DNA of 64,000 nt. Origin: Bradyrhizobium sp. AZCC 2262 (GTDB lineage: Bacteria; Pseudomonadota; Alphaproteobacteria; Rhizobiales; Xanthobacteraceae). The position numbers and the translations under genes were made by a program. Under the pieces are notes generated by a model. It had not been told where the DNA came from. It saw nothing but the letters and a program-made list of their open reading frames with translations, and ran no database searches. The stretch lies in the NCBI RefSeq assembly GCF_036924535.1, contig NZ_JAZHRT010000001.1, forward strand, positions 6,200,001 to 6,264,000. The letters run 5' to 3'. This document shows positions 2,336-30,310 of the stretch, one piece after another (position 1 is the stretch's first letter; every line of letters begins with the position of its first letter).

Positions 2336-2370
2336 AGGTTCCGGAAAAATCGAGTCCAAAATTGTAGCAG

Positions 2371-2399
2371 TTGTATCCAAAAAATAGTCGTATGCATCC
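2371..2399. promoter_or_regulatory. Putative GntR operator pair upstream of the RidA/livHM transcript
   Basis: TTGTATCCAA lies at 2371-2380 and a related ATGCATCC at 2392-2399, so equivalent bases are about two helical turns apart. The flanking sequence is also conserved at 9720-9770. Related copies occur at four other promoter-like places in the window. The motif resembles operators of FCD-type GntR regulators in general form; assignment to the GntR protein at 14367 is inference. Confidence 0.5.
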
Positions 2400-4512: not shown

Positions 4513-4554
4513 GAAAACCTTCTCCTTAGACCTTCTGTGATCGCAACCATTTTC

Positions 4555-4583
4555 GGATGCAAAAGATCTTTTTGTGGATACAA
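4555..4583. promoter_or_regulatory. Putative GntR operator pair upstream of the SDR operon
   Basis: GGATGCAA starts at 4555 and TGGATACAA ends at 4583; the GGAT elements are 21 bp apart. This is the reverse-complement orientation of the TTGTATCCAA pairs at 2371, 9741 and 14208. It lies about 40 bp upstream of the small ORF that leads the SDR operon. Control by the GntR regulator at 14367 is inferred from motif sharing only. Confidence 0.45.
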
Positions 4584-7728: not shown

Positions 7729-7829
7729 GTCAGATTCTTCGCTACCTATTGGATTTCCGTTTAGGCGCTCGTGTGGGCGCGCTCGCGGATGTTGTGCTGG
7801 TGGGTGCATCTTCAGGTGTTGCCGTGACG

Positions 7830-9661: not shown

Positions 9662-9740
9662 GTTGTTTCCGTTTCTGGCATCGGCCGGAGTTCCACTAAA
9701 GGATACGGGTCCTGAAAATACGAGTCCAAAATTATAGCAA

Positions 9741-9770
9741 CTGTATCCAATAATAGCCACGTGTATCCCA
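9741..9770. promoter_or_regulatory. Putative GntR operator pair upstream of the RidA-livK segment
   Basis: CTGTATCCAA at 9741-9750 and GTGTATCCCA at 9761-9770 are direct repeats spaced exactly 20 bp. About 40 bp to the left, the sequence GAGTCCAAAATT and neighbouring bases match 2353-2364, so the whole promoter region is duplicated. This is the clearest tandem pair of the motif set. Confidence 0.55.
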
Positions 9771-10121: not shown

Positions 10122-11837
10122 TTATTCAGCTGCCTTCAGCTTGGCGACAGAACGATCTGCGGCTCCCGAAGTCGATGGAAAGGCCCGGTAGCCATGCTTC
10201 GCATCCTTCGCCGTTAGCTTGGCAGGTCGATCCGCCGGATTTCCATAGCCTCCGCCGCCGGGCGTCTGCACGTTGATGATATCACCGGCGCGAAGCTGAA
10301 TGTCCTGGTCCTTCGACAAGTGCAGGGGCACGAACGTCCTGCCGCCTTGTTGAATCACAATGCGGTTCGGCTGGCCGGCCTCGCCGCCGAGGACGCCAGG
10401 CGGCCCCACCCTGCCATGATCCATCACGAAGGAGGCGCGAGCTTCGCCGCGCCGCAGCGCAATGGAATAGCGAACACCGAATCCTCCGCGATGCGTTCCC
10501 GCGCCGGCAGACTCTTCGGCTATCGCAAATTCCTTGAACAGAACGGGGAAACGCTGCTCCAGGATCTCGATAGGCGGCGTCTTCGCAATGCCAATTGTCG
10601 AACATCCGTTCGAGATGCCGTCGAACTCGATCGATCCGCCGTATCCGCCGCCAGTCACGATGTACATAACGAAGTTGCTGCCGGTCTCGGGGTCCGTGCC
10701 CCCTATCGCCAGGTTTCCGCTCGTGCCGGCGGGCGCTGCGAACAGTCGTTCCGGTAGCGCTTCGGCGAGGGCCAGAAAAACGGCTTCCGCGATGCGCTGG
10801 CTGACTTCGGCGGCACATCCGGACACGGGACGCGGATATTGTGCATCGAGGAATGTACCGGTCGGCACGGGCACGTGGAGTGGTTCGAACGTCCCGGCGT
10901 TGATTGGAACCTCCGGGAAGATATGCTTGATCGCGAGGTAGATTGCGGACTTGGTGGTCGCGATCACGCTGTTCATAGGTCCGCGGCAAGGCGGGCTTGA
11001 TTTCGAAAGGTCGAACTCGAGACTCTCGCCTCGCTTGCGGATCAAAAGGTTAATCTCGAGCGGCTCATCGACGACGCCGTCGGAATCGACGATCGTAATG
11101 CTGCGGTAGTCGCCATCCGGTATCGCAGTGATCTTGGCCTTCATCTGCTGGCAGGCGCCCTGCTTGAGAAGTTCGATCGCGAGCTCGACAGTGTCAGCGC
11201 CATAACGATCGAGCAGCGCGGTCAAGCGGCGCTCTCCGATCTCAAGCGCGGCTGCTTGCGCCCTGATATCGCCGATCCGCTGATCAGCTATTCGGATGTT
11301 TGAGAGGATGATCGACAGTATTTCCTCGTCGATCACGCCACGTTTGTAGAGCTTCACCGGAGGAATTCGAAGTCCTTCTTGTTCGACTTCGGTCGCCTTA
11401 GCTGAAAAGCCTCCGGGCACCATGCCGCCGGTATCCGGCCAGTGGCCAGTGTTCGAAAGCCAGGCGAAAAGATGCCCCCTGTAGAAGAATGGCTTGACGA
11501 ATTTCACGTCCATCAGGTGCGTGCCGCCGAGATAGGGATCGTTCAGAATGAAGATGTCGCCTTCCTCGAGGTTCTTGGCGCGGTCGATCACCGCGCGCGT
11601 CGAGAACTGCATCGTCCCCACGAAGATCGGGAGCCCCAACTCACCCTGCGCGATGAGCTCCCCGGTTGAGCGATGATAGATGCCGTCGGAGCGATCGAGG
11701 CCTTCTGCGATCACCGGACTGAACGCCGCGCGGACGAAGGTAGTGTCCATCTCGTTGCAGACCTGCTGCAATCCGTTCTGAATGACCGCTAGCGTTACCG
11801 GATCGATCGTCGTCACGTTATTGTCCCTTCCCAACAT
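10122..11837 (-). CDS. hyuB: Hydantoinase B/oxoprolinase-family protein
   Basis: This 571-residue protein is a full-length HyuB-type subunit. Typical blocks are DPVTLAVIQNGLQQV at the N-terminus, GDIFILNDPYLGGTH near 95, WLSNTGHWPDTGG near 125 with its metal-binding-type His/Asp, and the glycine-rich VQTPGGGGYGNP near the C-terminus. It pairs with HyuA, whose stop lies inside the HyuB start region, so the subunits are coupled. Family members (5-oxoprolinase, N-methylhydantoinase, acetophenone carboxylase) use ATP to activate an amide or carbonyl. Here it is a candidate for hydrolytic opening of a lactam produced by ring reduction. That role is inference from context. Confidence 0.92.
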   Translation of the reverse strand: MLGRDNNVTTIDPVTLAVIQNGLQQVCNEMDTTFVRAAFSPVIAEGLDRSDGIYHRSTGELIAQGELGLPIFVGTMQFSTRAVIDRAKNLEEGDIFILNDPYLGGTHLMDVKFVKPFFYRGHLFAWLSNTGHWPDTGGMVPGGFSAKATEVEQEGLRIPPVKLYKRGVIDEEILSIILSNIRIADQRIGDIRAQAAALEIGERRLTALLDRYGADTVELAIELLKQGACQQMKAKITAIPDGDYRSITIVDSDGVVDEPLEINLLIRKRGESLEFDLSKSSPPCRGPMNSVIATTKSAIYLAIKHIFPEVPINAGTFEPLHVPVPTGTFLDAQYPRPVSGCAAEVSQRIAEAVFLALAEALPERLFAAPAGTSGNLAIGGTDPETGSNFVMYIVTGGGYGGSIEFDGISNGCSTIGIAKTPPIEILEQRFPVLFKEFAIAEESAGAGTHRGGFGVRYSIALRRGEARASFVMDHGRVGPPGVLGGEAGQPNRIVIQQGGRTFVPLHLSKDQDIQLRAGDIINVQTPGGGGYGNPADRPAKLTAKDAKHGYRAFPSTSGAADRSVAKLKAAE

Positions 11838-13863
11838 GGATGATCACATTACCCAATAGGTCCACCTGCGCCCGGTCACCGGGATGAATCACGGTCGTTG
11901 CATCCAATTGCTCCAGAATCGCGGGACCCAGAAATTCGCTATTCAGCGGCAAGCGGTCTCGATCGAAGATCGGTGTCGACAGCCATCCGTCTTCGAACCA
12001 GACGCGTCTCATATCTATCTTTGCGTCGTCGAGATTCTTGGCGGCGGTGCTGGATGTCAATGCGTCGACTGGGAAAGGCCTTCTCTTTCCGATCACAGCG
12101 GTATGCAGATTGGCGAGCACGGGTTTGATTTCGGGAAGCGCAACCCTGAAGCGGTTCCAGTAGGCTTCGGCAAACGCCTTGTCGAGGTCGGCAATCTTTA
12201 CTCCGCGTCCTGACAACGCGACGTTCAGGATATGCGTCTGACCCTGGAACTGCATGTCAGCTGTGTGAAAGACCTGCACGTTTTCAATTTCGATATTTTC
12301 GTGCTGAAGAATTTTGTTTCCCTCTTCGATATGCGCGTCGAGCACGGAGAGGACGTCCACCTCGTTGACCATGGAAAGCGGCTTGTTGATTGTCCGCACA
12401 AAGTCATGCCGCAAGTCCGCAACGAGACAACCCAAAGCGTTCGTCAGACCAGGACGGGCCGGAATAAGAACTTTGGGAATGCCAAGCTCGCGCGCCAACG
12501 CGGCCGCATGGAGCGGTCCTGCACCGCCGAATGCCAGAAGGATGAAATCCCGAGGATCATGCCCACGCGACAGCGAGACAAGCCGGATGGCGCCGGCCAT
12601 CTTGTCGTTGGCCACCCGGATGACAGCAGCTGCGGCCTGTTCCGCGCTAAGTTTCAGCGCAGCTCCCACTTGGGTCATCAAGGCCTCTTCCACAACGGTC
12701 ATCGTTGTCAAGTTCTGCACGCCCAGCAGCCGCGCGGGGTTTAGCCGGCCCAGGACCAGATTGGCGTCTGTGATTGTAGGTTCGGTCCCGCCCCTGCCAA
12801 AGCAGATCGGGCCGGGAATGGCTCCGGCGCTCTTCGGCCCGATCTTAAGCAGGCCGGCTTCGTCGACGTGCGCGATCGAACCTCCTCCGGCACCAACGGT
12901 GTGAACGTCCACCATTGGTACGTGGATGGGCATCGCATATTCGATTTCCAGTTCGGAGGAGACCAGCGGCACCCCGTCCTGAATCAGAGCGACGTCTGTC
13001 GACGTGCCGCCCATGTCATAGGTAACGACGTTAGGAAATCCGGCAGCCGTAGCTGTACTGGCAGCTGCGATCACGCCTGAGGCGGGGCCCGACATGACGG
13101 TCTGGACGGCGGTGTGGGTCACGATCGAGGACGATGCCGTACCGCCGTTTCCCTGCATGACGAGAAGCTGGCGTTTCAGCCCGCGGTCCTTGAGTTCAGC
13201 TTCGAGCTTGTTCAAATAACGATGCAGGATCGGCTGGACCGAACCGTTGACGGCAGCGGTCACGCCGCGCTCGTACTCTCGACATTCCCCGATGATTTGG
13301 TGGCCTGCCGTAACGTACTCGTTGGGCCACAGCGATCTCACGATCTCCGCGGCTCGCAATTCGTGATCGGGATTGGCGTAGGAATGCAGAAAATGGATAA
13401 CGACGGACTCGGCGCCCAGCGCAAGCAGCTTCTTCACGACTTCGCGGACCTCGTCCTCGGAAAGCGGATCTACGACTGAGCCCGAAGCATCCATGCGCTC
13501 CGTGACTTCGAAACGGAGGTCGCGGGGAATAATGGGCTCGAACGTTCCGATCAAACCGTAGGGGTTCGGCCGTGTTCGTCGGCCGAGTTCGAGGACGTCT
13601 CGGAAGCCTCTGGTCGTGATCAGTCCGCATTTCGCGAGCTTGCGCTCAAGCACGGCGTTCGTCGTCGCGGTCGTGCCGTGAATGAAAAGGTCGACCCCAT
13701 GCGCACTCATTCCGGTCTTTTCGAGCGCAGCGATCACGCCATGAGCCTGGTTGGCGGTCGTGGTCGGCACCTTTGCCAACTGCAGCCCTCCGTTGGAGGG
13801 GTCATGCAGAATTAGATCCGTAAACGTGCCGCCGACATCACAGCCGACAATGACCGCACCCAT
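11818..13863 (-). CDS. hyuA: Hydantoinase A/oxoprolinase-family ATPase subunit
   Basis: The 681-residue product begins with the actin/ASKHA-type phosphate-binding motif GCDVGGTFTDLIL and has a second ATPase block with TYDMGGTSTDVALI. It is followed by GAGGGSIA and the FGGAGPLHA region, all diagnostic of HyuA. The ATG at 13863 was preferred over a TTG at 13869 because a GGAGA lies about nine bases upstream. It forms the ATP-binding subunit with HyuB, encoded immediately downstream with a short overlap. It is probably cytosolic. The pair lies directly beyond a divergent GntR promoter and is thus a likely first target of that regulator. Confidence 0.92.
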   Translation of the reverse strand: MGAVIVGCDVGGTFTDLILHDPSNGGLQLAKVPTTTANQAHGVIAALEKTGMSAHGVDLFIHGTTATTNAVLERKLAKCGLITTRGFRDVLELGRRTRPNPYGLIGTFEPIIPRDLRFEVTERMDASGSVVDPLSEDEVREVVKKLLALGAESVVIHFLHSYANPDHELRAAEIVRSLWPNEYVTAGHQIIGECREYERGVTAAVNGSVQPILHRYLNKLEAELKDRGLKRQLLVMQGNGGTASSSIVTHTAVQTVMSGPASGVIAAASTATAAGFPNVVTYDMGGTSTDVALIQDGVPLVSSELEIEYAMPIHVPMVDVHTVGAGGGSIAHVDEAGLLKIGPKSAGAIPGPICFGRGGTEPTITDANLVLGRLNPARLLGVQNLTTMTVVEEALMTQVGAALKLSAEQAAAAVIRVANDKMAGAIRLVSLSRGHDPRDFILLAFGGAGPLHAAALARELGIPKVLIPARPGLTNALGCLVADLRHDFVRTINKPLSMVNEVDVLSVLDAHIEEGNKILQHENIEIENVQVFHTADMQFQGQTHILNVALSGRGVKIADLDKAFAEAYWNRFRVALPEIKPVLANLHTAVIGKRRPFPVDALTSSTAAKNLDDAKIDMRRVWFEDGWLSTPIFDRDRLPLNSEFLGPAILEQLDATTVIHPGDRAQVDLLGNVIIHVGKGQ

Positions 13864-14007
13864 TTCCAACTATCTCCAATGATATCTCAGTGAATAATTC
13901 GATGCATTTCCTGTGCCCGGATCGCGGCGATAGATGCCCGATCAGGGCAAACTCGGCGCCGGTTCCGTACGCTTAGTGATCGAGGTCAGGAGGCTCGCTT
14001 TACTTGC

Positions 14008-14166
14008 TCAGCTTTGAGGTTCATGCGGCCGGCGTAGATCGGCGTCGCGCACGTCCTCGGACCGGGATACTTGAGGAAGATGATCTTGCGGCCGGCCCAC
14101 TACCCATTCCATGTCGTTTACGTGCCAGTACTCTGGCGCGAAATCTGTGGGATTATCGGTGGTCAT
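14008..14166 (-). CDS. Small leader ORF of the hyuAB operon, possibly frameshifted
   Basis: From the ATG at 14166, which follows a strong GGGAGAAG ribosome site, 52 codons read MTTDNPTDFAPEYWHVNDME and onward. At about residue 22 a shift into the next frame would give KIIFLKYPGPRTCATPIYAG and stop at 13984, a composition that looks more protein-like than the arginine-rich end of the unshifted frame. I do not recognise the product. It is the first gene after the divergent promoter and could be a small enzyme fragment, an accessory peptide or a decaying gene. Confidence 0.45.
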   Translation of the reverse strand: MTTDNPTDFAPEYWHVNDMEWVVGRPQDHLPQVSRSEDVRDADLRRPHEPQS

Positions 14167-14187: not shown

Positions 14188-14217
14188 TACATCCATAATT
14201 TATATCATTGTATCCAA
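14188..14217. promoter_or_regulatory. Putative GntR operator in the gntR/hyuA divergent promoter
   Basis: TACATCCA at 14188-14195 and TTGTATCCAA at 14208-14217 have their ATCCA cores 21 bp apart in an AT-rich spacer, between the hyu leader ORF and the GntR gene. The location is what is expected for autoregulation plus control of hyuAB. It matches the motif pairs at 2371, 4555 and 9741. Confidence 0.55.
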
Positions 14218-14366: not shown

Positions 14367-15092
14367 TTGAAAGCAGCAGCTTCTCCGAAGCTTATCGAGG
14401 ATCTGGCCAACCGGATCCAGGCCAAGATCGTCGCCGGCGAATACCCACCGGGAACACGCTTGAAGCAGGAAGTGCTGGCCCAGCAATTTGACGTAAGCCG
14501 TACTCCAATCAGGGAGGCACTCTCGCGGCTGGAGGCCAAGGGGATCGTCAGTCAGGCCCAGCGCCGCAGCGCGGTGGTCCGCGCGCCTTCCAGCCGTGAA
14601 ATATCCGAAATGTACCAGGTAAGAGCCGAACTTGAGGGCCTGGCCGCGCAGCTTGCGGCGCGCTGGATCACTGATCAGCAATTGGTGGATCTCAGAATTT
14701 CCCATGACGAGTTCGTGCAAGCTGTGAAGGAGCTTCGCGGCGATCGGGATTCCACGTCGCGCGCCGATCCGAAGTGGTTCGAGCAGGCCGCGCAGCGCTG
14801 GATCGACATGAACGCGAAGTTTCACAAGACCATCAATGATGCGTCGAACAATCGATATCTCGCCCGCACCATTCTGGATGTGACATCGGGATATGCGAGG
14901 AGCGTCATGCTGTCTTCGGCCTTCGGCATGAATAGCTTCCGAATTGAGCAGAACATCGTCCAGCATGAACGAATCCTCAAAGCGCTTGAGGACCGCGAGC
15001 CGGCGCGTGCGCGCAGGGCCATGGTGGATCACGTCATGGAATCCGGCGAATTCGTTATCGCATCATTTTCGAACCAAATGGCCGACAGTTAA
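14367..15092 (+). CDS. GntR-family transcriptional regulator, FCD subfamily
   Basis: This 241-residue regulator has an N-terminal winged helix (residues about 8-75) with GEYPPGTRLKQEVLAQQF and VSRTPIREALSRLEAKGIV, the GntR hallmark. A helical FCD effector domain from about 85 to 230 contains MYQVRAELEGLAAQLAA and the metal-site-type FHKTINDASNNRYL. The start is probably the TTG at 14367, about nine bases after AAAGGCGG. It is divergent from hyuAB and closest to the operator at 14188-14217. FCD regulators usually respond to small carboxylates, consistent with a catabolic intermediate as inducer. Confidence 0.92.
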   Translation: MKAAASPKLIEDLANRIQAKIVAGEYPPGTRLKQEVLAQQFDVSRTPIREALSRLEAKGIVSQAQRRSAVVRAPSSREISEMYQVRAELEGLAAQLAARWITDQQLVDLRISHDEFVQAVKELRGDRDSTSRADPKWFEQAAQRWIDMNAKFHKTINDASNNRYLARTILDVTSGYARSVMLSSAFGMNSFRIEQNIVQHERILKALEDREPARARRAMVDHVMESGEFVIASFSNQMADS

Positions 15093-15180: not shown

Positions 15181-18100
15181 TTACCGGCTCATTCGGATCC
15201 GCCGAATGGTTTCGGGGACACCGATCCAGGCTTGTTTCTCGGGCGCAAATTTTTGCCGCAGATAGGAAACGAGTTCGACAACCTGCTCGTCGTCCAGACT
15301 GTTCTTGAAGGCGGGCATGTAGCCGAGGTCGCTTGAGACGGGCGAGCTAATCCCGTGAAGGATCACCTGGATCAGATTGTCAGGCCTCTGGCTGTGGAGA
15401 TTGCTGTTGAGGGCGAGCGATGGCCTCGTACCGAACAGCCCCGGCGCGCTTGCCTGATGGCAGACTGCACAGGCGCCTTCATGGATTTTCTCGCCGATCG
15501 ACGACGCCGTGATGAATCTGGCGCCTGCCGCCGTTTCGATCTGCTTGGCCAATGTTTCCTGCCCCACCGGATCATGTCTGTCGGCATTGAAAGAGGCGAT
15601 ATAGCTGGCCATTGCCTTGATGTCGCTGTCGGGGAGGACCGCGAGCTCCTTGACGACGGGCGCCATGGGTCCGGCGGCTACGCCGTGAAAGCGGGACGTA
15701 CCGGTCCGCAGATGGGCGAACAGCTCTTCCTCGGTCCAGGGAATTGGCGCGTGAGATAGGGAGTTCAGCGCCGGAGCCTCCCAACCCTTGACCATCGCCC
15801 CACCGAGATGAGCCGGCGCCCCTCCCCTCTCCGCGCCAAAGAGATTGCGCGGAGTATGACACGCGCCGCAGTGGCCAAGCCCTTCCACAAGATAAGCGCC
15901 GCGATTCCAAGCCTCAGATTTCGACGGATCCGCCTGAAACACGGCGGCGCTGTGAAATGCGGCGTTCCAAACTGAAACCAGAGGACGCGCGCCAAATGGA
16001 AACGCCAATTCCGAATTGCGATTTTCCGCATGGACCGGGGACTGGGACATGAGATACGCATAGAGCGCCTGCAAGTCGGCATCAGACGTCTTCGCGAAAT
16101 GATTGTATGGAAACGCCGGGTAAAGATGCCGTCCGTCGCGGTGGATGCCCTCGCGCATGGACCGCTCGAAGGCGGGATACGACCAATCTCCGATTCCGGT
16201 ATCAATATCGGGCGTGATGTTTGTGCTGTAGATCGTCCCGAACGGCGTCTCTATGGCGAGTCCCCCAGCGTTCGCGATACCGTTATCCGTCGTGTGGCAT
16301 ACCGCGCAATTGCCTAGCGCGGCAAGCTGCTTTCCGCGATTGATCGTCGACTTTGAATAAACGGTCGCATCGGGTCTTGGGATCGGCGCTATCGCCGACT
16401 TCCAAGGCATTGCCATCGTAGCGAAGCCGGCCACCGCGACCCACGCGCTTATCAACCCGGCAAAAAGGCCGGTGCGCTTCTTGGCTCGCGACAGTGCCCC
16501 GGACGTCGCGCCGTTCAGGCCGACCCTGATACGGTCTGGCGTGAAGGGCAACTCCCTGAAACGCACGCCGGTTGCGTCGAAGATCGCATTTGCAATCGCC
16601 GCAGCGCTCGGGATCGAAGACGCCTCTCCGATTCCGAGTGGCGGCTGGTCCTGGCGCGGCATCAGCAAAACATCGATTCTGGGGACGTCCGGAAACTTGA
16701 TGATCGGATAGGCGCCCCACTCTCGACTCACGACACCCGCGCGATTGAACGCCACCTCTTCCATCAGCGCCCGGCTCGTCGACTGTATGACGTTGCCTTG
16801 TATCTGGTGCCGCGCACCATCAGGATTGATCACCAGGCCGGCGTCCTGGCCCATGACCACACGCGTCACGTTGACGTCGCCGGTGGTCTTGTTCACCGTC
16901 ACGTCGGCGATCCATGCCGACCAGGCCGCCGCAATACCTGGAAACTTGCCGTGGAGGTGAAGGGCGTATGCGAATCCCCGGCCCGAGACGACATCGCCTT
17001 CCCCGAGCTGATTCGGATGCGGAGTTCGGGGCGTCCATTCGGCCCGCGCGGCGACCTCCTTGATGAGATCTATTCCGCGTTGATCCTTCAAATAGCGCAG
17101 ACGATATTCGATCGGATCAGCGCCGACTTCCGCGGCAAGCTCGTCGATATAGGATTCATGCGCGAACGTGTTCGGGAGTGCCGACACGGCCCGGAGCCAT
17201 GATGCACGCACGATCGGTGGCATGTCGTGCACGACCACGCGCATCGAGTCGAATTCGTATGGGGGGATGGCGGTGCGGTCTCCCATCCCGATCACCTCGG
17301 GAGCGGAAGATATGGTGTTGGTGAGCAGAAGCGCGAGCGTCGGCGAATTGTTCGAGGGATACCGCGTCGTGAAATCGTAAGCTGCGACGCTGCCGTCAGC
17401 GTTGAGGCCACCGTCCACCTCGAGGAACTGCCCGGTGCCCTTCGGCTCCCAGACATGCTCCTGTTCGCGGCTCAGTTGGACGCGCACGGGACGGCCGGTT
17501 GCCCGCGATAGCAGTGTCGCATCGGCCGAGACGTCGTCTGCACAGTTGCGTCCGTAGCAGCCCGCGGCCTCCATGCGCACGATGTCGATCTGCGCTTCGT
17601 CCATCTGCATAAGCAACGCAAGATCGGCGCGGAGTATGTGAGGATTCTGGGTACCGGACCAAACGCGGAGGAAGCCATCCCGGTAGTCCGCCACCGAACA
17701 CGAAGGTCCGATCGATGCGTGCATCTGGTAAGGCCAGATATATTTGGCCTTGATCCGCTTATCGGCTTTCGAGATAGCCTCCCCCACGTCACCCTTGTCG
17801 ATCAGCGTCCTGGGCGTTGACGGGTTGGCGCGCAACGCGGTTTCGATGTCCTTCAGGTCTGGAACCGGCGGCACCGGCTTCCACGCGACTTCGAGAAGCT
17901 CGCCCGCCTTGATGGCATTTTCCTCGCGTTCTGCGATGACGCCGACGAAATCCCCGATTGTCACGACGCCGATCATCCCGGGAAGGTCCGCGACCGATGC
18001 TTCGTTGACGTAAATCAGGCTGTTTCCGACGAAATCTCCTGCATCGACGCCGGCATAAGGCGGACGCACGACGCGCCCATGGACCATGCCGGGGACACGC

Positions 18101-18690
18101 ACGTCGTGGACGTAGGTGAGTTCGCCGGTAGCCTTTGCGACAAGGTCGACACGCGGAGCCTGTTTGCCCACGACTCTGTACGATTCAAAGGATTTCACCG
18201 CGACGTTGTCGGTAAGCTCTATCGCGAATGTTTGCCCCGCGATCAACTCGCCATAACTCGCGCCGCGGTTTCCGCTGCAACGGACGAGTCCGTCCTCGAC
18301 GGATAGTTCGTCCGGATGCACATCGAAGCGCTCCGCGGCACGAGCAACCAGGAATTGGCGGGCCTGGGCAGCCGCTTTTCTGATCGGCACTGCAGCGAGC
18401 TGAATGGTCTCGCTTGCGATCGTCGGGCCTTGATCGGGCGTTCGTGCGGTATCGCCGAGGGACATGACGACGCGTTCGAATGCCACATCGAGCTCTTCGG
18501 CAACGATTTGCGCGAGAGCGGTACGAATGCCCGTTCCAAGATCCACGTGACCGCTGAAGGCAGTTATCGACCCGTCCGACGTTAGAACGAGAAAGTTCTC
18601 GGTCGCACCTCTAGACGATCGCCGCACGACGGATAAGGTTCCATCGGGACCGGTACCGGCGGTTACCGCCGGGATTTCAATGTTCGGCAT
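15181..18690 (-). CDS. Molybdenum hydroxylase large subunit fused to a tri-haem cytochrome c domain (NicB/isoquinoline-oxidoreductase-like)
   Basis: The product has 1169 residues from the ATG at 18690, two bases after the stop of the small subunit gene. Residues 1 to about 730 are a xanthine-dehydrogenase-family molybdopterin-binding subunit, with LGDTARTPDQGPTIAS early and the late GIGEASSIPSAAAIANAIF block. A hydrophobic segment near 740-760 is followed by three CxxCH haem sites: CAVCH near 796, CGACH near 940 and CAVCH near 1075. This architecture is that of nicotinate hydroxylase NicB, in which electrons leave through cytochrome c rather than FAD. The cytochrome part should face the periplasm. 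It probably hydroxylates an N-heterocycle next to the ring nitrogen; nicotinate is the best guess, not proven. Confidence 0.88.
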   Translation of the reverse strand: MPNIEIPAVTAGTGPDGTLSVVRRSSRGATENFLVLTSDGSITAFSGHVDLGTGIRTALAQIVAEELDVAFERVVMSLGDTARTPDQGPTIASETIQLAAVPIRKAAAQARQFLVARAAERFDVHPDELSVEDGLVRCSGNRGASYGELIAGQTFAIELTDNVAVKSFESYRVVGKQAPRVDLVAKATGELTYVHDVRVPGMVHGRVVRPPYAGVDAGDFVGNSLIYVNEASVADLPGMIGVVTIGDFVGVIAEREENAIKAGELLEVAWKPVPPVPDLKDIETALRANPSTPRTLIDKGDVGEAISKADKRIKAKYIWPYQMHASIGPSCSVADYRDGFLRVWSGTQNPHILRADLALLMQMDEAQIDIVRMEAAGCYGRNCADDVSADATLLSRATGRPVRVQLSREQEHVWEPKGTGQFLEVDGGLNADGSVAAYDFTTRYPSNNSPTLALLLTNTISSAPEVIGMGDRTAIPPYEFDSMRVVVHDMPPIVRASWLRAVSALPNTFAHESYIDELAAEVGADPIEYRLRYLKDQRGIDLIKEVAARAEWTPRTPHPNQLGEGDVVSGRGFAYALHLHGKFPGIAAAWSAWIADVTVNKTTGDVNVTRVVMGQDAGLVINPDGARHQIQGNVIQSTSRALMEEVAFNRAGVVSREWGAYPIIKFPDVPRIDVLLMPRQDQPPLGIGEASSIPSAAAIANAIFDATGVRFRELPFTPDRIRVGLNGATSGALSRAKKRTGLFAGLISAWVAVAGFATMAMPWKSAIAPIPRPDATVYSKSTINRGKQLAALGNCAVCHTTDNGIANAGGLAIETPFGTIYSTNITPDIDTGIGDWSYPAFERSMREGIHRDGRHLYPAFPYNHFAKTSDADLQALYAYLMSQSPVHAENRNSELAFPFGARPLVSVWNAAFHSAAVFQADPSKSEAWNRGAYLVEGLGHCGACHTPRNLFGAERGGAPAHLGGAMVKGWEAPALNSLSHAPIPWTEEELFAHLRTGTSRFHGVAAGPMAPVVKELAVLPDSDIKAMASYIASFNADRHDPVGQETLAKQIETAAGARFITASSIGEKIHEGACAVCHQASAPGLFGTRPSLALNSNLHSQRPDNLIQVILHGISSPVSSDLGYMPAFKNSLDDEQVVELVSYLRQKFAPEKQAWIGVPETIRRIRMSR

Positions 18691-18692
18691 GA

Positions 18693-19235
18693 CTACTCCG
18701 AACTTGCCGTTTCGGAGGCTGCCCTCATCACCGCCCGCAGAATTTCGACATGGGCGCCGCATCGGCAAAGATTGTATTTCAGCGCCTCGGCAGCTTCTTG
18801 TTCGGACGGGCGGGCGTTTCGCGCCAACAAGGCTTTTGTCGTCATGATCATCCCGTTGAGGCAATAGCCGCATTGCGCCGCTTCTTCCGCAATGAAAGCG
18901 CTTTGGATCGGATCTAGATCATACCGCGAGCCTAAACCCTCAAGTGTGAGGATGCTTCGGTCGACGCAGCCGCCGACGGGAATGACACACGATCGCGCAG
19001 GCAGTCCGTCCAGGATGACTGTGCATGCGCCGCATTCTCCGAGGCCGCATCCGAATTTGGGGCCGTTCAGCTTCAGATCGTTGCGCAGCACATACAGCAA
19101 CGGCGTAGTACGGGCAGCTACGATCTCGCACGTGCTTCCGTTAACCTGCAGGAGCATGGTCTGATTAGATTTCGCTTCCGACGGCTTGTTCGGCATCGTG
19201 GAGTGGCCGGTCTTCAGGCCGGACGAACTCGTCAT
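18693..19235 (-). CDS. [2Fe-2S] small subunit of molybdenum hydroxylase (NicA-like)
   Basis: This 180-residue protein carries two [2Fe-2S] clusters. The plant-ferredoxin-type cluster is CGLGECGACTV with a later RSCVIPVGG cysteine. The second cluster has CGYCLNGMIM and CRCG near the C-terminus. The order and spacing are standard for xanthine-dehydrogenase-family small subunits, which relay electrons from the molybdenum centre. The ATG at 19235 was chosen because it lies four bases after the stop of the upstream reductase gene; the protein then has an extra N-terminal stretch of about 25 residues, and a start at MPNKPSEAK is also possible. It is the obvious partner of the large subunit at 15181-18690. 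Confidence 0.92.
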   Translation of the reverse strand: MTSSSGLKTGHSTMPNKPSEAKSNQTMLLQVNGSTCEIVAARTTPLLYVLRNDLKLNGPKFGCGLGECGACTVILDGLPARSCVIPVGGCVDRSILTLEGLGSRYDLDPIQSAFIAEEAAQCGYCLNGMIMTTKALLARNARPSEQEAAEALKYNLCRCGAHVEILRAVMRAASETASSE

Positions 19236-19239
19236 GAGA

Positions 19240-20013
19240 TCATCGCTCCGCGAAAGCCTTCTCGACGACAAAATCCGCGGCTTGCCCGTGATTGCCTTCC
19301 TCGAATCCTTTTTCGATGAGGATGGATTTCGTGTCGGCGAGCAAGGCCGGGCTACCGCAGATCATCATCCTGTCCTTTGCCGCGTCCAGATTCGGCAGCG
19401 AAATGTCGGAGAAGAGATTGCCTGAAGTAATGAGACTGGTGATGCGTCCACGGTTGCGGAAGGGATCGCGCGTCACAGTCGGATAGTAGATCAGTTGCTC
19501 TCTAATCAACTCGCCGATCAATTCATCCTGCGGCAGCTTCTCCGTGATCATCTCGCCATATGCGAGTTCCACGACACGGCGGCATCCGTGGAGCAGAACG
19601 ATCTTCTCGAAGCGGCCGTAGGTTGCCGGATCCTTGATCACACTCAGGAACGGCGCGAGGCCCGTACCCGTTCCGATCAGATAAAGATTTCGGCCGTTTG
19701 TCAGGTTGTCGATGACGAGTGTCCCCGTCGATTTGCGCCCGACGATGATCTGGTCGCCCTCCTTCAGATGCTGAAGCCGCGACGTGAGGGGCCCGTCCGG
19801 CACCTTGATGGAGAAGAACTCGAGGTTGGGCTCGTAATTCGCGCTCGCGACGCTATAGGCGCGCATCAGCGGCCTGTCGCCGATTTCAAGTCCTATCATC
19901 ACGAACTCGCCGTTGCGGAAGCGGAACGACGGATCGCGGGTGGTCGTGAAGCTGAACAGGTTGTCCGTCCAGTGATGGACGTTCAGGACACTTTCCTGGT
20001 TGAAATTTGCCAT
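19240..20013 (-). CDS. Ferredoxin--NADP+ reductase-type flavoprotein
   Basis: The 257-residue protein starts MANFNQESVLNVHHWTDNLF at 20013, the usual Fpr N-terminus, with an AAGGAACG-like ribosome site; the upstream in-frame extension is not conserved-looking. FAD and NADP motifs include RAYSVASANYEP, IGTGTGLAPFLS and the MMICGSPALL block, ending VVEKAF. Bacterial Fpr enzymes exchange electrons between NADPH and ferredoxin or flavodoxin. Here the gene is directly upstream of the molybdenum hydroxylase and downstream of the 6-hydroxynicotinate-reductase-like gene, so it may supply low-potential electrons to the reductase. Feeding the Rieske oxygenase is an alternative. Confidence 0.9.
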   Translation of the reverse strand: MANFNQESVLNVHHWTDNLFSFTTTRDPSFRFRNGEFVMIGLEIGDRPLMRAYSVASANYEPNLEFFSIKVPDGPLTSRLQHLKEGDQIIVGRKSTGTLVIDNLTNGRNLYLIGTGTGLAPFLSVIKDPATYGRFEKIVLLHGCRRVVELAYGEMITEKLPQDELIGELIREQLIYYPTVTRDPFRNRGRITSLITSGNLFSDISLPNLDAAKDRMMICGSPALLADTKSILIEKGFEEGNHGQAADFVVEKAFAER

Positions 20014-20227
20014 CGTTCCTTCTCTTTCCATTGGCGGGCCCGACCGAAACTGTGTTGACGGTCGCGTCCGCATTTGCTGCGATTTGCGTTTGGGGCCAGG
20101 AGACGTCTGTGTTCGACGAGGGGGCCTATTCCGTGATCAGATCGATCGGATCATCATGCTGATCTTTGATCGATGCCTATCTGGAGAGTTGACCGCGACA
20201 GTTTTCGCGCGTTGAGCTTTGCCCGAA

Positions 20228-21652
20228 TCATTGCCATGTCTTCATCGCCTTCAGCGAAGACAGCGGCTGGATGTGATCGACATGCCCTCCTAGCCTTGCA
20301 TAGTCATCACGCCGCATCGTGAATTCGATAGGTGCAACGACCGCCGGCGTCGGCACGTAGCCGAATGCGTTCTTGGGAAGTTGAGAAACATCGACCATGA
20401 ACGTGATGCCGCCGCCGGGCCAGACAAATACAGGCGCGCCGCCGCACGTGACTGACGTAATCGCTTCCTTCACTGAGTTCGTCAGTTGCACGGGATTTTC
20501 GGTGACGCCGGACCGCAGCGAGCCTCCGGCCCCGCCCATGAATAACACCGTGCACATTCCCGGCTCGCAGTTTTCGCTGATGCGTTCGATCGACGGTGTT
20601 AGATGGACCGGCAACGCCTTCTCGATAGGACGCAGGCCCTGGTCGAGTTCATAGTAGGCCCATTGCTCGCCCGTTGTGCTTACCATGAGCAATCGCAGAC
20701 CCGGCCAGGCCTGCTTCGTATCGAAAGGGCCGAGAATCGTAAGCGGGTCGGCGATATCGGTGCCGCCCCACCCGCTTCCCGGCTCGGCGACCTGAAAATA
20801 GCGGCCCGGGGTCGAGCGACGGCCCTTCAGTTTAATTCCCGTTCCCGGAATGCCGAGCATCTTGCCGGCCTGATGTTCGGACAACACGCCGGTAATGTGG
20901 TCGTCGACAGCCACCACTTCGTCGATTTGGCCTAACCACTGCTTGGCGAACATTCCGATCGTTGCCGAGCCGCAGCCGGCGCGCATGCGCAGTTCGTCGA
21001 CGCCGTTCACGATGGGCGCGTGTCCGGATTGCACGATAACGGAAGCACCGCCGTCCACCGTTAGTTCAAGCGGATTGCCGTTGCAGAGTGACACCAGGGC
21101 ATCGCAGGTCGCGCGTCCCTCCTTTTTCGATCCTCCGGTGAGGTGGTGCACGCCGCCCAGCGAAAACATCTGCGAGCCGTATTCGCTCGTCGTGACGTGC
21201 CCGACCGCCTCGCCTTGCGAGCGAACCGTTGCCGCTTCCGCGCCGAGGTGACGGTCCGTGTCGATCTTGATCTTGACGCCGCAGTAACTGAATATTCCCT
21301 CGGTGACGACGGTCACCATGTCGACGCCGTCGATTGCGGAGGATACGATCAGCGGTGCCGGCTTGTAGTCGGGATACGTCGTGCCCGCACCAATGGCGGT
21401 CACGAAAGTTCTGCGCTCATGAAGCGGCGAGCCGTCCCAATCTTTGCTGCTTCGGAACGGGACGAGATGTCCGCCTTGTGCAACCGTCCTTTCGAGGATT
21501 ACGTGCGGGTCGACGCGGACCAGCTCCCCTTCGACATTCGCATAGCGGTCGCACGCGCCCGCTGCGCCTGGTTTGATGTAGCACATCACCGGACAGGCAT
21601 CGCATCTGATCTTGTCGCTGGCGGCGTCCAATTGGGTCGCTGGGGGATTCAT
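20228..21652 (-). CDS. 6-hydroxynicotinate reductase-like [4Fe-4S] protein
   Basis: The 474-residue protein opens with a cysteine cluster C17-x2-C20-x3-C24-x9-C34 (IRCDACPVMCYI then GACDRYAN), suitable for a [4Fe-4S] centre. From memory of the family, this N-terminus and length match 6-hydroxynicotinate reductase of the fermentative and rhizobial nicotinate route, which reduces 6-hydroxynicotinate to 1,4,5,6-tetrahydro-6-oxonicotinate with ferredoxin. The neighbours fit: an Fpr-type reductase and a NicAB-like hydroxylase lie downstream, a carrier upstream. No signal peptide is present, so it is cytosolic. The identity is likely, but it could act on another hydroxylated heterocycle. Confidence 0.75.
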   Translation of the reverse strand: MNPPATQLDAASDKIRCDACPVMCYIKPGAAGACDRYANVEGELVRVDPHVILERTVAQGGHLVPFRSSKDWDGSPLHERRTFVTAIGAGTTYPDYKPAPLIVSSAIDGVDMVTVVTEGIFSYCGVKIKIDTDRHLGAEAATVRSQGEAVGHVTTSEYGSQMFSLGGVHHLTGGSKKEGRATCDALVSLCNGNPLELTVDGGASVIVQSGHAPIVNGVDELRMRAGCGSATIGMFAKQWLGQIDEVVAVDDHITGVLSEHQAGKMLGIPGTGIKLKGRRSTPGRYFQVAEPGSGWGGTDIADPLTILGPFDTKQAWPGLRLLMVSTTGEQWAYYELDQGLRPIEKALPVHLTPSIERISENCEPGMCTVLFMGGAGGSLRSGVTENPVQLTNSVKEAITSVTCGGAPVFVWPGGGITFMVDVSQLPKNAFGYVPTPAVVAPIEFTMRRDDYARLGGHVDHIQPLSSLKAMKTWQ

Positions 21653-21727
21653 GACGGTATCGTCCTGTGGAAAGTTATCGGGCCGAAGAAGGGCGCAGCG
21701 CGGTCAAACGTCGCGCCCTTTCGTCGG

Positions 21728-23074
21728 TTACTGCGCCACTGCCTCGTGGGTGGGCGCCGCGATCATGACCGCGACGCCGTCCGTTTTCGTCTTTGTCGCG
21801 AAGCCGGCCATCGCGAGAAGCAGCACGCCAAGGAACGAGACTCCAGCGAGGATGCTGTAGAAGATCGCCAGCGGGAACCACTGGCCCGGATAACTGGCCG
21901 ACAGAGCCACGCCGATCACCGGTGTGAAGCCGCCAAAGATGGCGCCTCCGAGCTGATACGATGCCGAGATCGAGCTGTACCGAACCTCCACCGGGAACAC
22001 CTTGCTCGCGTAACCAGCGATGACCGCATAGAAGCCGGAGGCGCACAGTGTCGCGATCGAAACCCCGGCGACGATGCCGGTTGTCGTCTTTAATTGAACC
22101 AGCAGGAACATCGGATAGGGCGCAAGCATTGCGAGCGCCGAAGCCACGAGCAAAAATCTGCTGTCACCGATCCGCTCCGCGATTTTAGCGGCCGCGAGCT
22201 GCCCAAGGAATTGCACGACCGCCACCATGGCGAGGCAGTCGAGAATTACCGCACGATCGAGGCCCAGGGTGCGGGTGGTGTAGGCGATCAGGAATGTGTT
22301 CGTGAAGTAGAACCCGGCGGTGCCGATGGTGAAGGCCAGCATCGTGAACAGGATCGGCCACGTAGCTTGCCGGAAGGCTTCGGCGATCGGGAAGCGCGCC
22401 AGCTTCTTGCTTTCGCTCGCCGCGGTGAATTCGGGCGACTCATTGACCCCCAGACGAATCGCTATTCCGACAACGAGGAGAACAAGGCTCAACAGGAACG
22501 GAATTCTCCATCCCCAGACCGCGAAACTGTCGCCCGACGCGCGTGAAACGATCGCGAAGATGCCCATCGAGAGCAACACCGCGGCGGGGCTGCCAAGTTG
22601 CGCGAACGAGGCATACCAGGTCCGACGACCCTCGGGCGCATGTTCGCCGGCCATCAGAACCGCCCCGCCCCACTCTCCACCTACCGAGATGCCCTGGCAG
22701 ATCCGAAGAACAATGAGCATCACGGGTGCCCATATTCCGACCTGAGCGTAGGTGGGCAGGACGCCGATAGCCGACGTCGACAATCCCATCAGCAGCAGCG
22801 TCGCAATGAGCGCTTTTTTTCTGCCGAACCGGTCACCCAGATGACCGAAGAAGAAACCTCCAAGCGGCCTCGCAAAGAAACCGACGCCGAAAGTGGCAAG
22901 GGAGATCAGCAGCGACACGTTGGGGTCGCTGTTGGGGAAGAAGAGCTGCGGAAAGACCAGTGCGGAAGCCGTGCTGTAAATGAAGAAATCGTACCATTCG
23001 ATTGTGGTGCCCGCGAAGGCGGCGGTGGCGGCGCGCTCGGGTTGACGCACCGAGGTCGAGACAGCACTGCCCAT
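21728..23074 (-). CDS. MFS transporter, metabolite:H+ symporter type
   Basis: From the ATG at 23074, preceded by AGGAG eight bases upstream, the protein has 448 residues and about 12 hydrophobic segments. TTIEWYDFFIYSTASALVF at the first helix, RPLGGFFFGHLGDRFGRK between helices 2 and 3, and SVGGEWGGAVLMAGEHAP in helix 5 identify the MHS branch (ShiA/ProP/KgtP-like), which imports carboxylates with protons. It precedes the reductase gene by 75 bp and is probably in the same transcript. An aromatic or heterocyclic carboxylate is the likely cargo; this is inference. Confidence 0.92.
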   Translation of the reverse strand: MGSAVSTSVRQPERAATAAFAGTTIEWYDFFIYSTASALVFPQLFFPNSDPNVSLLISLATFGVGFFARPLGGFFFGHLGDRFGRKKALIATLLLMGLSTSAIGVLPTYAQVGIWAPVMLIVLRICQGISVGGEWGGAVLMAGEHAPEGRRTWYASFAQLGSPAAVLLSMGIFAIVSRASGDSFAVWGWRIPFLLSLVLLVVGIAIRLGVNESPEFTAASESKKLARFPIAEAFRQATWPILFTMLAFTIGTAGFYFTNTFLIAYTTRTLGLDRAVILDCLAMVAVVQFLGQLAAAKIAERIGDSRFLLVASALAMLAPYPMFLLVQLKTTTGIVAGVSIATLCASGFYAVIAGYASKVFPVEVRYSSISASYQLGGAIFGGFTPVIGVALSASYPGQWFPLAIFYSILAGVSFLGVLLLAMAGFATKTKTDGVAVMIAAPTHEAVAQ

Positions 23075-23261
23075 GGAAATACTCCTATTTTTGACCAATG
23101 AGCGACTTCGCAAGGTTCGTGCCACCTGCCAAACCGCCGATCCGTGACACCATATCCAGAATTATGTAGTTAAAACAACGTTCTGCGTTATTTCCTTTGC
23201 CGGCTATCGCCGGCACAGCTAACTTATGGGCTAAAATTTAAGCATACAAGTCTATAATTTA

Positions 23262-23289
23262 TACATCCAGTACTAATAATCTTGGATAC
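23262..23289. promoter_or_regulatory. Putative GntR operator in the divergent MFS/molybdoenzyme promoter
   Basis: TACATCCA at 23262-23269 and TTGGATAC at 23282-23289 are related to the TTGTATCCAA motif but arranged head to head, unlike the direct pairs elsewhere. The AT-rich divergent intergenic region 23075-23365 controls the MFS operon on the minus strand and the molybdoenzyme gene on the plus strand. Assignment to the GntR regulator is tentative. Confidence 0.4.
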
Positions 23290-23365
23290 TATAATCTTCG
23301 TTCAGGGTTCGTTTGTCGACAAATGGTTGCCAAACTGGCACTGAAGCTCGAGTGGGAGGCCGGCA

Positions 23366-25366
23366 ATGACCAAAAAGATCTACACATCGTGCACACTGGA
23401 TTGTCCCGACGGGTGCGGAATCATTGCCCATGTCGACAATGGCCGCGTGGTGAAGCTTGAGGGACATCCGGATCACGAATTTACGAAGGGTTACCTCTGC
23501 GCCAAGACCTATAGATTTCCGAAGCGGCTCTATAGTCCTGAGCGGCAGCTTCATCCGCTCAAGCGCGCAAACGGATCCATCGACTCGCCGTGGGTACGCA
23601 TCGGGTGGGATGAAGCGCTGGACCTGGTGGCCGACAGAATCCGCCGCTTCAAGGCGGAAACGGGCTCGCTTTCGATCATGCACTATCAGCGGACCGGATC
23701 GTGGGGAGTGACGAAGAAACTCAACCACCGCTTCTGGAATCTATTGGGCGGTGTAACAACGCCAAGCGGCTCACTGTGCAGCGGAGCCGCGCGCGCCGGA
23801 CAGAAGCTCGACTTTGGCATTCGCTTAGGTCACGATCCTTCAGACATCGTCAACAGCAAGCTTGTCCTTCTCTGGGGACGCAATCCTCTAGCCACGAACC
23901 TGCACTTGGTGCCACTACTGAAAACGGTCAGTGAGCAAGGCGGCAGGGTGATCCTTGTCGATCCCGTTAAAAGCGAATCAGCGACGATTTGCGATCGGCA
24001 CGTCCAGCCGCGCGTCGCAACGGACGCCTCATTTGCGCTTGCTCTGGCCAAAATCGTCCTGGAAGAGGGCCTGGAGGATAAGGACTTCATTGAACGTCAC
24101 ACCGACGGGTTCGCAAAATTCCGAACTCTCGTCGATTCCCATTCGCTCCAATCGCTCAGCGACCGTTGCGGATTGTCGATCGAGGACCTGCGGGAGTTGG
24201 CGCGCGAATACGCAACAACGAAGCCGGCGTCCATCCAGCTCGGATGGGGATTGAACAAGTACAAGAGCAGCGCGGAGATCTTCCGCTGCGTCGATGCCCT
24301 CGCCGCGCTCTGCGGTCAGATCGGCATTCCCGGCGGCGGCGTGACCCACGGTTATGACACCCAACGTCTTTTCGACAAGACGATAGAAGCATCCGACAGG
24401 GCGGAATTTCATCGGGCGATTCCAGAGCCTCTCCTGGGCCGCGGATTGCTGGAAGCCTCCGATCCTCCCGTCCGCATGATGTTCGTGAACGGCGGAAATC
24501 CGGTAAACCAATCGCCTAACTCAAATTTGGTCGCCAAGGCGCTCACGCAACTAGATTTTGTTGTCGTCGTCGACAGTTTTCTAACCGATACGACGGACTA
24601 CGCACATATCTTCCTTCCGACGACGACGTTTCTGGAGGAAGAAGACGCACTCGTCTCGTGGGGCCACAACATTCTCGGCGGTGTAAACCCCGCCATTGAT
24701 CCCGTCGGAGAATCCAGGTCGGATCTCTGTATTGTGCAGCAGCTCGCCGATCGGTTGGGTATCGGGGAAGAGATGGCCGGCACGCCGCGCGAGTGGTTGA
24801 GGCGCGTCATGAGCCCGATGGAGGCAAAGGGTGTGACGGTCGATGCACTTCTGGACGGCCCCATTCGCTGCCCGGTGGCGCCTCTTATACCGTTTGCAGA
24901 CAAGAAGTTTCCCACGAGGTCGGGGCACTTCGAATTCATCTCCGAGATCGAAGTCGAGCAACGGAGGGATCCGGCGTTTCCCCTCACGCTGGTTACCAAT
25001 TTTAGCAAGAAATGGTTGCTGTCACAGATGACGGAAGCCGAACATCCCAAGCTTGCCACTGTCCGCGTCGGCGCCGACTGGGCCGCAAACCATGGGATTG
25101 AGAACGGCCGGCAGATGCGGCTACGCTCCGCTGTCGGAGAACTCGTGGTCGAGGTACAGGTCGATCCGCGCGTCGGCAAGGAGATGGTGATCATGGCCGT
25201 CGGGACATGGATGAAACGCCACGGCGGCGTAAACATTCTGACGGAAGACATCATGACGAATTTCGGAGAGATGGCCGCGTACGGAGAAACACGCGTTCTT
25301 CTTGAGCCGCTGGAACCGGCGCTGGCCGCCGCTACTCGCGGCGTTGATTTGCAAATGACCGCATGA
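23366..25366 (+). CDS. Molybdopterin oxidoreductase of the DMSO reductase family
   Basis: This 666-residue protein has an N-terminal [4Fe-4S] motif C9-x3-C13-x3-C17-x27-C45 and the bis-MGD molybdopterin fold: LLWGRNPLATN near 175, a VNGGNPVNQSPNS block near 375, and a C-terminal MoCo-binding domain beginning near 545 (TLVTNFSKKWLLSQMTEAEH). There is no Tat signal, so it is cytoplasmic. It resembles formate-dehydrogenase-like and hydroxytransferase-like members whose substrates vary widely. Being divergent from the MFS/reductase operon and sharing the motif, it is probably part of the same pathway, perhaps a second oxidation or hydration step. The exact reaction is unknown. Confidence 0.88.
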   Translation: MTKKIYTSCTLDCPDGCGIIAHVDNGRVVKLEGHPDHEFTKGYLCAKTYRFPKRLYSPERQLHPLKRANGSIDSPWVRIGWDEALDLVADRIRRFKAETGSLSIMHYQRTGSWGVTKKLNHRFWNLLGGVTTPSGSLCSGAARAGQKLDFGIRLGHDPSDIVNSKLVLLWGRNPLATNLHLVPLLKTVSEQGGRVILVDPVKSESATICDRHVQPRVATDASFALALAKIVLEEGLEDKDFIERHTDGFAKFRTLVDSHSLQSLSDRCGLSIEDLRELAREYATTKPASIQLGWGLNKYKSSAEIFRCVDALAALCGQIGIPGGGVTHGYDTQRLFDKTIEASDRAEFHRAIPEPLLGRGLLEASDPPVRMMFVNGGNPVNQSPNSNLVAKALTQLDFVVVVDSFLTDTTDYAHIFLPTTTFLEEEDALVSWGHNILGGVNPAIDPVGESRSDLCIVQQLADRLGIGEEMAGTPREWLRRVMSPMEAKGVTVDALLDGPIRCPVAPLIPFADKKFPTRSGHFEFISEIEVEQRRDPAFPLTLVTNFSKKWLLSQMTEAEHPKLATVRVGADWAANHGIENGRQMRLRSAVGELVVEVQVDPRVGKEMVIMAVGTWMKRHGGVNILTEDIMTNFGEMAAYGETRVLLEPLEPALAAATRGVDLQMTA

Positions 25367-27596: not shown

Positions 27597-27604
27597 ATTC
27601 CCAA

Positions 27605-30253: not shown

Positions 30254-30310
30254 TAGATGTTCCTATCCCTTCGAACTCAGCCTCGATCCCCTTCACGAAA
30301 TTTCAGAACT

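Follow-up and report, generated by a model that had tools for sequence, protein, structure and literature searches.

Gene content and operator-like sites

The window analysed here, a stretch of 64,000 nucleotides (G000:C1:6200001-6264000) in the 9.48-Mb genome of Bradyrhizobium sp. AZCC 2262, carries on its left side an island of about 1-25.4 kb, which reaches the window's left edge and constitutes a single predicted GntR regulon with putative operators. The island encodes a molybdenum hydroxylase (NicAB), a ferredoxin-NADP reductase type flavoprotein (Fpr), a member of the 6-hydroxynicotinate reductase family (Hnr), a metabolite:H+ symporter (MHS) type carrier, a Liv-type ABC transporter, a Rieske oxygenase, a subunit pair of the ATP-dependent lactamase type (HyuAB), a GntR/FCD-family regulator and a lone molybdoenzyme of the DMSO-reductase family (Table 1). 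On balance it appears somewhat probable that the products of this one regulon import a pyridine carboxylate and degrade it reductively, with HyuAB replacing enamidase, beside an ordinary nicotinate cluster encoded elsewhere in the same genome. The unusual part is the ring-opening step, in which HyuAB would stand in for enamidase; it was absent from an earlier sequence-only reading of positions 15181-25366.

That reading had recognized a NicA/NicB-like hydroxylase with a tri-haem tail, an Fpr-type reductase, an MHS-type carrier and a divergent DMSO-reductase-family enzyme, and the domain searches agreed with it on each. Both hydroxylase genes are open; NicB has molybdenum cofactor (MoCo)-binding domains and CxxCH motifs at residues 856, 1002 and 1135 of its open reading frame, and NicA has two [2Fe-2S] domains, which is the NicAB architecture of a [2Fe-2S] subunit and a molybdenum subunit with a C-terminal three-haem domain. 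The frame at 19240 is likewise open and gave the expected Fpr domain match. For the carrier the best NCBIfam match was TIGR00883 (metabolite/H+ symporter), at 387 bits against a cut-off of 443. The start positions of NicB (18690), NicA (19235), Fpr (20013) and MHS (23074) were read from the frames, not computed, and are probably correct.

The genes at 1-15.1 kb, those for HyuAB, the GntR regulator, the ABC transporter and the Rieske enzyme among them, were assigned to the same regulon because of a common promoter motif. The genes further right had been proposed to form one pathway; the motif, located at five promoters and none beyond, favours a single unit, the limits of which proved wider than had been proposed. 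It was in the window sequence that the motif first attracted attention, the AT-rich element TTGTATCCA lying in the region between HyuA and GntR. A weight matrix was built on ten sites from five other genomes with HyuAB, GntR and the molybdoenzyme, none being from the window. This training set comprised every exact TGTATCCA match in 182 kb from the five relatives, and all ten matches adjoin GntR or the molybdoenzyme or precede transporter genes.

The ten best matrix rows in the window all fall at the five island promoters (2.3-23.3 kb), with a second half-site 21 bp off at each, while the best score elsewhere in the window was 9.2 bits and the other 38.6 kb stayed below 10 bits throughout. Neither the 44 kb of the ordinary cluster nor the 10 kb adjoining the window on its left yielded a match of at least 11 bits. 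The second-order Markov control (30 sequences) gave a mean of 0.33 matches of at least 14 bits per 64 kb, and the real-DNA background at that score was five matches in 1,533 kb (80 Fpr loci) and five in 1,055 kb (26 plasmid loci). Leave-one-genome-out training recovered each genome's own sites at 13-34 bits; the last motif control was run with slightly different pseudocounts. A single duplication may have given rise to the sites at 2372 and 9742, since each has dehydrogenase sequence upstream.

An 84-bp stretch of dehydrogenase gene occurs twice (9856-9939 and 2813-2896, 92% identical), each time upstream of an operator-like site; the extra copy is part of a dehydrogenase gene and indicates that DNA was duplicated locally. 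This stretch is also the sole direct repeat of at least 30 bp within 1-30 kb, and for that range, which does not take in the island's left edge outside the window, a repeat-bounded island was rejected as a description. A decayed cluster was ruled out as well: the main genes have open frames, and the remnants are the cupin gene and the dehydrogenase fragment, with the dehydrogenase at 2756-3448 being short N-terminally. Long, open copies of the cupin gene were found in three relatives (G224, G1140 and G1182), that of G1182 being a Cupin_7 protein. No RNA element matched Rfam at gathering score within the window.

Table 1. Genes and operator-like sites of the island, in window coordinates.
Feature	Position	Strand	Evidence or remark
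Second ATPase gene			beyond the window's left edge, following the LivG-type gene
LivG-type ABC ATPase, 5' part	1..252	-	ABC_tran; gene continues past the window's left edge; gene calls there L149 9540-10253 and 8839-9540, the second ATPase gene included
Fused LivH/LivM ABC permease	303..2201	-	BPD_transp_2 in two stretches
GntR operator-like site	2351..2379	.	upstream of permease gene; 15.7 bits (2372) + 10.1 bits, 21 bp apart
Short-chain dehydrogenase, N-terminus short	2756..3448	-	adh_short_C2
Short-chain dehydrogenase	3518..4273	-	adh_short_C2
GntR operator-like site	4554..4583	.	about 300 bp upstream of dehydrogenase gene; 19.5 bits (4575) + 13.8 bits, 21 bp apart
Xylose-isomerase-like TIM-barrel protein	5612..6697	-	AP_endonuc_2, E 7e-4, under cut-off
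Rieske oxygenase, VanA/dicamba O-demethylase type	6694..7833	-	Rieske + VanA_C; DdmC E 1.7e-46
ABC substrate-binding protein	7830..9110	-	Peripla_BP_6
GntR operator-like site	9721..9749	.	about 600 bp upstream of binding-protein/Rieske/TIM-barrel genes; 18.4 bits (9742) + 7.8 bits, 21 bp apart
HyuB/CapB-type subunit, ATP-dependent lactamase	10122..11837	-	Hydantoinase_B; caprolactamase 6yra_B E 4e-80
HyuA/CapA-type ATP-binding subunit	11818..13869	-	Hydantoinase_A; 6yra_A E 4e-113
Cupin gene remnant	13998..14166	-	tblastn: residues 1-25 and 103-135 of 144 left
GntR operator-like site	14188..14216	.	HyuA/GntR divergent region; 31.4 bits (14209) + 11.8 bits, 21 bp apart
GntR/FCD-family regulator	14367..15092	+	GntR + FCD domains
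NicB, molybdenum hydroxylase subunit with three-haem tail	15181..18690	-	MoCoBD_1/2, cytochrome c, 3 CxxCH
NicA, [2Fe-2S] subunit	18693..19235	-	Fer2 + Fer2_2
Fpr, ferredoxin-NADP reductase type flavoprotein	19240..20013	-	domain match
Hnr, 6-hydroxynicotinate reductase family, [4Fe-4S] motif	20228..21652	-	
MHS-type carrier	21728..23074	-	MFS_1/Sugar_tr; TIGR00883 under cut-off
GntR operator-like site	23262..23291	.	MHS/molybdoenzyme divergent region; 25.4 bits (23283) + 12.1 bits, 21 bp apart
Lone DMSO-reductase-family (FdhF-like) molybdoenzyme, 666 amino acids	23366..25366	+	[4Fe-4S], molybdopterin, dinucleotide-binding domains

Relation to the ordinary nicotinate cluster

A second Hnr gene lies at 5.015 Mb in the host genome, 1.2 Mb from the window. 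Its neighbours are NicA, NicB, a nicotinate phosphoribosyltransferase, UPF0280, AA_synth, a MarR regulator and a Liv-type transporter, and about 9 kb past the MarR gene stand an Fpr gene (82% identical to that of the window) and an amidohydrolase, the best solved relative of which is enamidase 2VUN (E 2.5e-107). At E 1e-60 the genome contains just one enamidase gene, which maps to this cluster (4.998 Mb). The gene set agrees with the aerobic reductive nicotinate cluster that the relevant part of PMC3511419 outlines for Azorhizobium and Bradyrhizobiaceae. Identities between the window and this ordinary cluster are 67% for NicA, 68% for NicB, 77% for Hnr, 56% for the binding protein and 54% for the permease, and the window is therefore a divergent second set. 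The permease and binding protein are 80% and 74% identical, respectively, to those of G1220, where the permease gene adjoins HyuAB and the molybdoenzyme.

The window has in common with the Azorhizobium/Bradyrhizobiaceae cluster, so far as that part of PMC3511419 describes it, the NicAB-type hydroxylase, Hnr and the Liv-type ABC transporter, with Fpr nearby in the loci analysed here. It differs in having no enamidase, UPF0280 or AA_synth recognized within it, and the place of the MarR-containing set is taken by HyuAB, GntR, MHS, the Rieske enzyme and a second molybdoenzyme. The reductive nicotinate route was already reported from aerobic Bradyrhizobiaceae in the same portion of that paper (Shettigar et al., 2012; PMC3511419). 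The sequence-only reading had placed this route in an otherwise aerobic bacterium; the chemistry fits, but neither the route nor its setting is new, and the same genome holds the ordinary, enamidase-containing version. The identity of 67-68% between the window NicAB and a copy adjoining both nicotinate phosphoribosyltransferase and Hnr is at most suggestive of nicotinate as the substrate.

The [4Fe-4S] protein at 20228-21652, which had been likened to Hnr from its cysteine spacing, was placed by the homology search within the database Hnr family. All 8000 proteins scored were relatives; the best 120 of them were 75-97% identical, nearly all across at least 96% of the query, and many carry the name 6-hydroxynicotinate reductase. 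The motif C17-x2-C20-x3-C24-x9-C34 is kept unchanged throughout the 94 aligned rows. No Pfam match above cut-off, no NCBIfam match and no PDB relative were found for this protein. A Bradyrhizobiaceae homologue has been reported to be 42% identical to the Eubacterium barkeri Hnr (PMC3511419, in the section concerned). A quick tree built from 118 Hnr rows put the window protein in an eight-row clade (Shimodaira-Hasegawa-like approximate likelihood ratio test 99) that excludes the ordinary copy. Across the genus (265 genomes) the self-score of the window protein was 1,095 bits, followed by G224 with 862 bits (78%), and the highest identity elsewhere among those listed in this search was 79%, to the ordinary copy of G165.

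Fpr repeatedly accompanies Hnr: 21 of 26 plasmid Hnr loci hold a homologue, and the MarR gene of the Hnr cluster stands alongside in 52 of the best 80 Fpr loci of the genome collection. UPF0280, which adjoins Hnr in all 26 plasmid loci, showed a weak match to ApbE (L003:14172-15080; E 0.0029, under cut-off) and is perhaps an Hnr maturation factor. Hnr carries covalent flavin. The notion that UPF0280 attaches this flavin was left as an idea, because the threonine considered, T231, is absent from the listed conserved positions.

Enamidase or HyuAB at Hnr loci

A search of 72,556 plasmid records returned 26 with Hnr, and the surroundings of all 26 were read, 20 kb per side where the record allowed (loci L165-L167 are shorter reads of the L185-L187 records and were not counted twice). 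Enamidase, 67-75% identical to that of the host genome, was found in 16 of these loci and window-like HyuAB in 10 (HyuA 56-59%, HyuB 63-67%); none of the 26 had both enamidase and this HyuAB clade, and none had neither. One enamidase locus (L172) also encodes a distant HyuAB pair (42-43%) which falls outside the window clade. Among the 32 genome-collection loci bearing Hnr-cluster markers, taken from the best 80 Fpr loci, 31 have enamidase and none has window-type HyuAB; the one left over (L106) shows neither inside its 10-kb flanks.

The label of enamidase or HyuAB switches four times on an Hnr tree of 37 rows (35 labelled), and at least three of these switches are forced by well-supported branches. 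One of the 26 plasmid rows was dropped from this tree (L192, gene in two frames), and the genome rows L145 and L147 are unlabelled. In the HyuA tree, the 13 Hnr-linked HyuAs and three from Hnr-free molybdoenzyme modules form one clade (100/100), separate from 13 other HyuAs that include same-genome paralogues. In the relative G1140 the sole Hnr (E 1e-100) lies inside the HyuAB module, and its whole genome gave no enamidase at E 1e-60. The HyuA gene of G1140 (L159:7180-9226) is split across two frames, by either a frame shift or an assembly error.

The window HyuAB retain both subunits and the ATP and metal sites of ATP-dependent lactamases. In the caprolactamase CapAB of Pseudomonas jessenii (6yra), activity is nearly or fully lost on losing CapA D11 or D295, or CapB D41, H99, D102 or H124 (PMC8453981, in the mutational part). 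All six residues are present in the window pair, with the HyuB metal ligands kept as D48, H107, D110 and H132 and HyuA retaining D11 and the DMGGT motif. Caprolactamase was nevertheless rejected as the exact identity, the pair scoring 504 and 311 bits against a curated cut-off of 1000. Its gene company also differs from that of CapAB. A related enzyme pair, the oxoprolinases OplAB, opens the six-membered delta-valerolactam in an ATP-dependent manner, although the OplAB system, as far as the part of PMC11033972 used here describes it, acts on a different substrate and includes no ring reductase. From these likenesses and the distribution above we infer that HyuAB would open the lactam made by Hnr in the place of enamidase.

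Nicotinate and related pyridines are common in plants and soil, and the reductive route has been described so far with enamidase ring opening. Anaerobic nicotinate fermentation in Eubacterium barkeri uses Hnr together with enamidase. The host genome resembles that organism in its Hnr family and in the enamidase homologue of its other cluster, whereas the host is proteobacterial and ring opening in the window is assigned to HyuAB. Within the open-licence library searched, no work was found joining hydroxynicotinate with hydantoinase, and nicotinate degradation combined with oxoprolinase returned one paper, on fungal nicotine. What would be new is an ATP-dependent ring-opening pair that has apparently replaced enamidase in several lineages, here within a defined regulon that includes a molybdoenzyme. 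The either/or pattern suggests that an ATP-dependent enzyme has taken over from enamidase more than once, which could be tested in rhizobia and in marine Rhodobacterales with HyuAB plasmids, and the predicted operators give a setting in which the role of a rare molybdoenzyme may be worked out.

Proposed pathway, alternatives and flanking genes

In the favoured reading, the reactions, the direction of electron flow and the substrate are all predictions. The substrate would be nicotinate or a close, possibly methylated, relative, taken up through the ABC system and the MHS carrier and optionally demethylated or hydroxylated by the Rieske enzyme. NicAB would then hydroxylate the ring to give a 6-oxo compound, with electrons leaving via the haem tail, and Hnr would carry out a two-electron ring reduction with electrons that NADPH would supply by way of Fpr (and of a ferredoxin for which no gene was seen in the window). 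HyuAB would finally open the six-membered lactam at the cost of ATP, a step that falls to the ATP-free enamidase in the ordinary cluster.

The Rieske enzyme has both the Rieske and VanA_C domains of O-/N-demethylases, and its frame shares 4 bp with the end of the binding-protein gene. The true start of the Rieske gene may be further in. Relatives of 51-56% identity adjoin a binding-protein gene in 11 of the 26 plasmid Hnr loci, of both the enamidase and HyuAB types. Of the solved structures dicamba O-demethylase is the closest to it, and the matches include methylxanthine N-demethylases, so that the substrate may reasonably be guessed to be a methylated pyridine carboxylate. Trigonelline and homarine were considered as substrates and set aside, nothing on a Rieske enzyme for either having turned up among the papers listed.

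The molybdoenzyme belongs to the regulon, and its reaction is not named here. Its close relatives are few: three of 265 genomes of the genus (E 1e-200), and four of 391 and one of 385 genomes in the family and class draws (E 1e-180), the host genome being included each time and the order, family and class searches being even draws. It adjoins HyuAB and GntR in all six genomes in which it was found. MHS is present at five of the six loci, Hnr at three (window, G224 and G1140), Fpr at three (window, G1140 and G1220) and NicAB in the window only. Its best sequence matches are formate dehydrogenases of the FdhF type, with which it shares the domains and the position of the metal-ligand cysteine (Cys138, invariant in 112 of 112 rows), and a formate dehydrogenase supplying electrons for ring reduction could be imagined. 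The residue after the ligand is Ser139, however, with serine in 90% of the 112 rows, where formate dehydrogenases have histidine; the histidine and the Cys/Sec ligand are what we take to be the catalytic residues of those enzymes. The score is moreover 256 bits against a cut-off of 666, and no electron-transfer subunit gene was recognized beside the molybdoenzyme among the gene calls of the six loci, not all of which were family-searched. Formate dehydrogenase was thus rejected as the identity of 23366-25366, and its proposed electron-supplying role is extremely unlikely.

Several observations weigh against a pyridine carboxylate regulon in which HyuAB replace enamidase. UPF0280 and AA_synth, both present in all 26 plasmid Hnr loci, gave no tblastn match in the window (E 1e-10, >100 bits), and the pathway may need those of the ordinary cluster. 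The modules of G164, G1182 and G1220 have HyuAB, GntR and the molybdoenzyme without an adjacent Hnr, while Hnr and enamidase are found elsewhere in each genome; because this is the case in three of six modules, HyuAB may act on something else. G1140 gave no NicB-type match at E 1e-200, and its Hnr would therefore have to receive its substrate from another source than a close NicB. Enamidase uses no ATP on its substrate, and an ATP-dependent substitute for this reason looks wasteful unless the lactam differs. The 26 plasmid loci are non-independent, with near-identical Sulfitobacter plasmids among them; many Sulfitobacter rows being near-copies, no probability is given for the either/or pattern. 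The matrix also matches other places in the relatives at 11-14.7 bits, and the bare consensus with one mismatch was not enriched (9 found against 6.2 expected).

Some of these points would be accommodated if the core consisted of HyuAB, GntR, the molybdoenzyme and usually MHS and served another N-heterocycle, the molybdoenzyme making or modifying the ring and Hnr (here also NicAB and Fpr) being recruited later to act on a ring other than 6-hydroxynicotinate. The cores without an adjacent Hnr are the main support for this account, to which may be added the rarity of the molybdoenzyme and its constant company of HyuAB and GntR, the separate clade formed by the module Hnrs of the window, G1140 and G224 (99/94), and the want of a close NicB or enamidase in G1140. 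It sits less easily with the resemblance of NicA, NicB and Hnr to those of the ordinary nicotinate cluster, and HyuAs of the same clade stand where enamidase would be expected in 10 plasmid Hnr loci showing no such molybdoenzyme; we regard it as possible yet rather unlikely. A merely redundant second nicotinate cluster, with HyuAB and the rest as neighbours acting on unrelated substrates such as hydantoins, would agree with the complete ordinary cluster in the genome and with the commonness of HyuA-type proteins (five matches in the host at E 1e-30). The common promoter motif, the either/or relation with enamidase and the single clade of Hnr-linked HyuAs all speak against such redundancy, which is considered very unlikely.

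A more far-reaching reading can be offered tentatively, as a doubtful one. Aerobic soil bacteria would then have another branch of reductive pyridine catabolism besides the known one, where a GntR-controlled chain of NicAB, Hnr and a stand-alone molybdenum/tungsten bis-pterin enzyme makes an enamidase-resistant lactam that the ATP-dependent lactamase opens, with the Rieske enzyme feeding in methylated pyridines. The molybdoenzyme would in that event catalyse a new N-heterocycle reaction, for instance further reduction to the saturated lactam or an alternative ring hydroxylation.

The remaining observations concern the DNA right of the island. The N-terminal part of an IS110-family transposase lies just beyond it at 27298-27651 (100 bits, cut-off 140), followed at 28160-35814 by a gene group for a large alpha/beta hydrolase, a Diels-Alderase-like protein, a TetR regulator, a P450, a kinase-like protein and an alcohol dehydrogenase. 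A further gene pair, at 39723-42502, encodes a molybdenum subunit of the xanthine-oxidase family and a [2Fe-2S] subunit. Two neighbouring genes of the ADP-ribosylglycohydrolase family (51501-54704) stand by a LacI regulator and sugar-type ABC genes. ARAGORN called a tRNA-Asn at 57343-57417, possibly falsely, on the opposite strand inside the gene for a MobA/MobL-type relaxase with a helicase-like domain (56669-59632).

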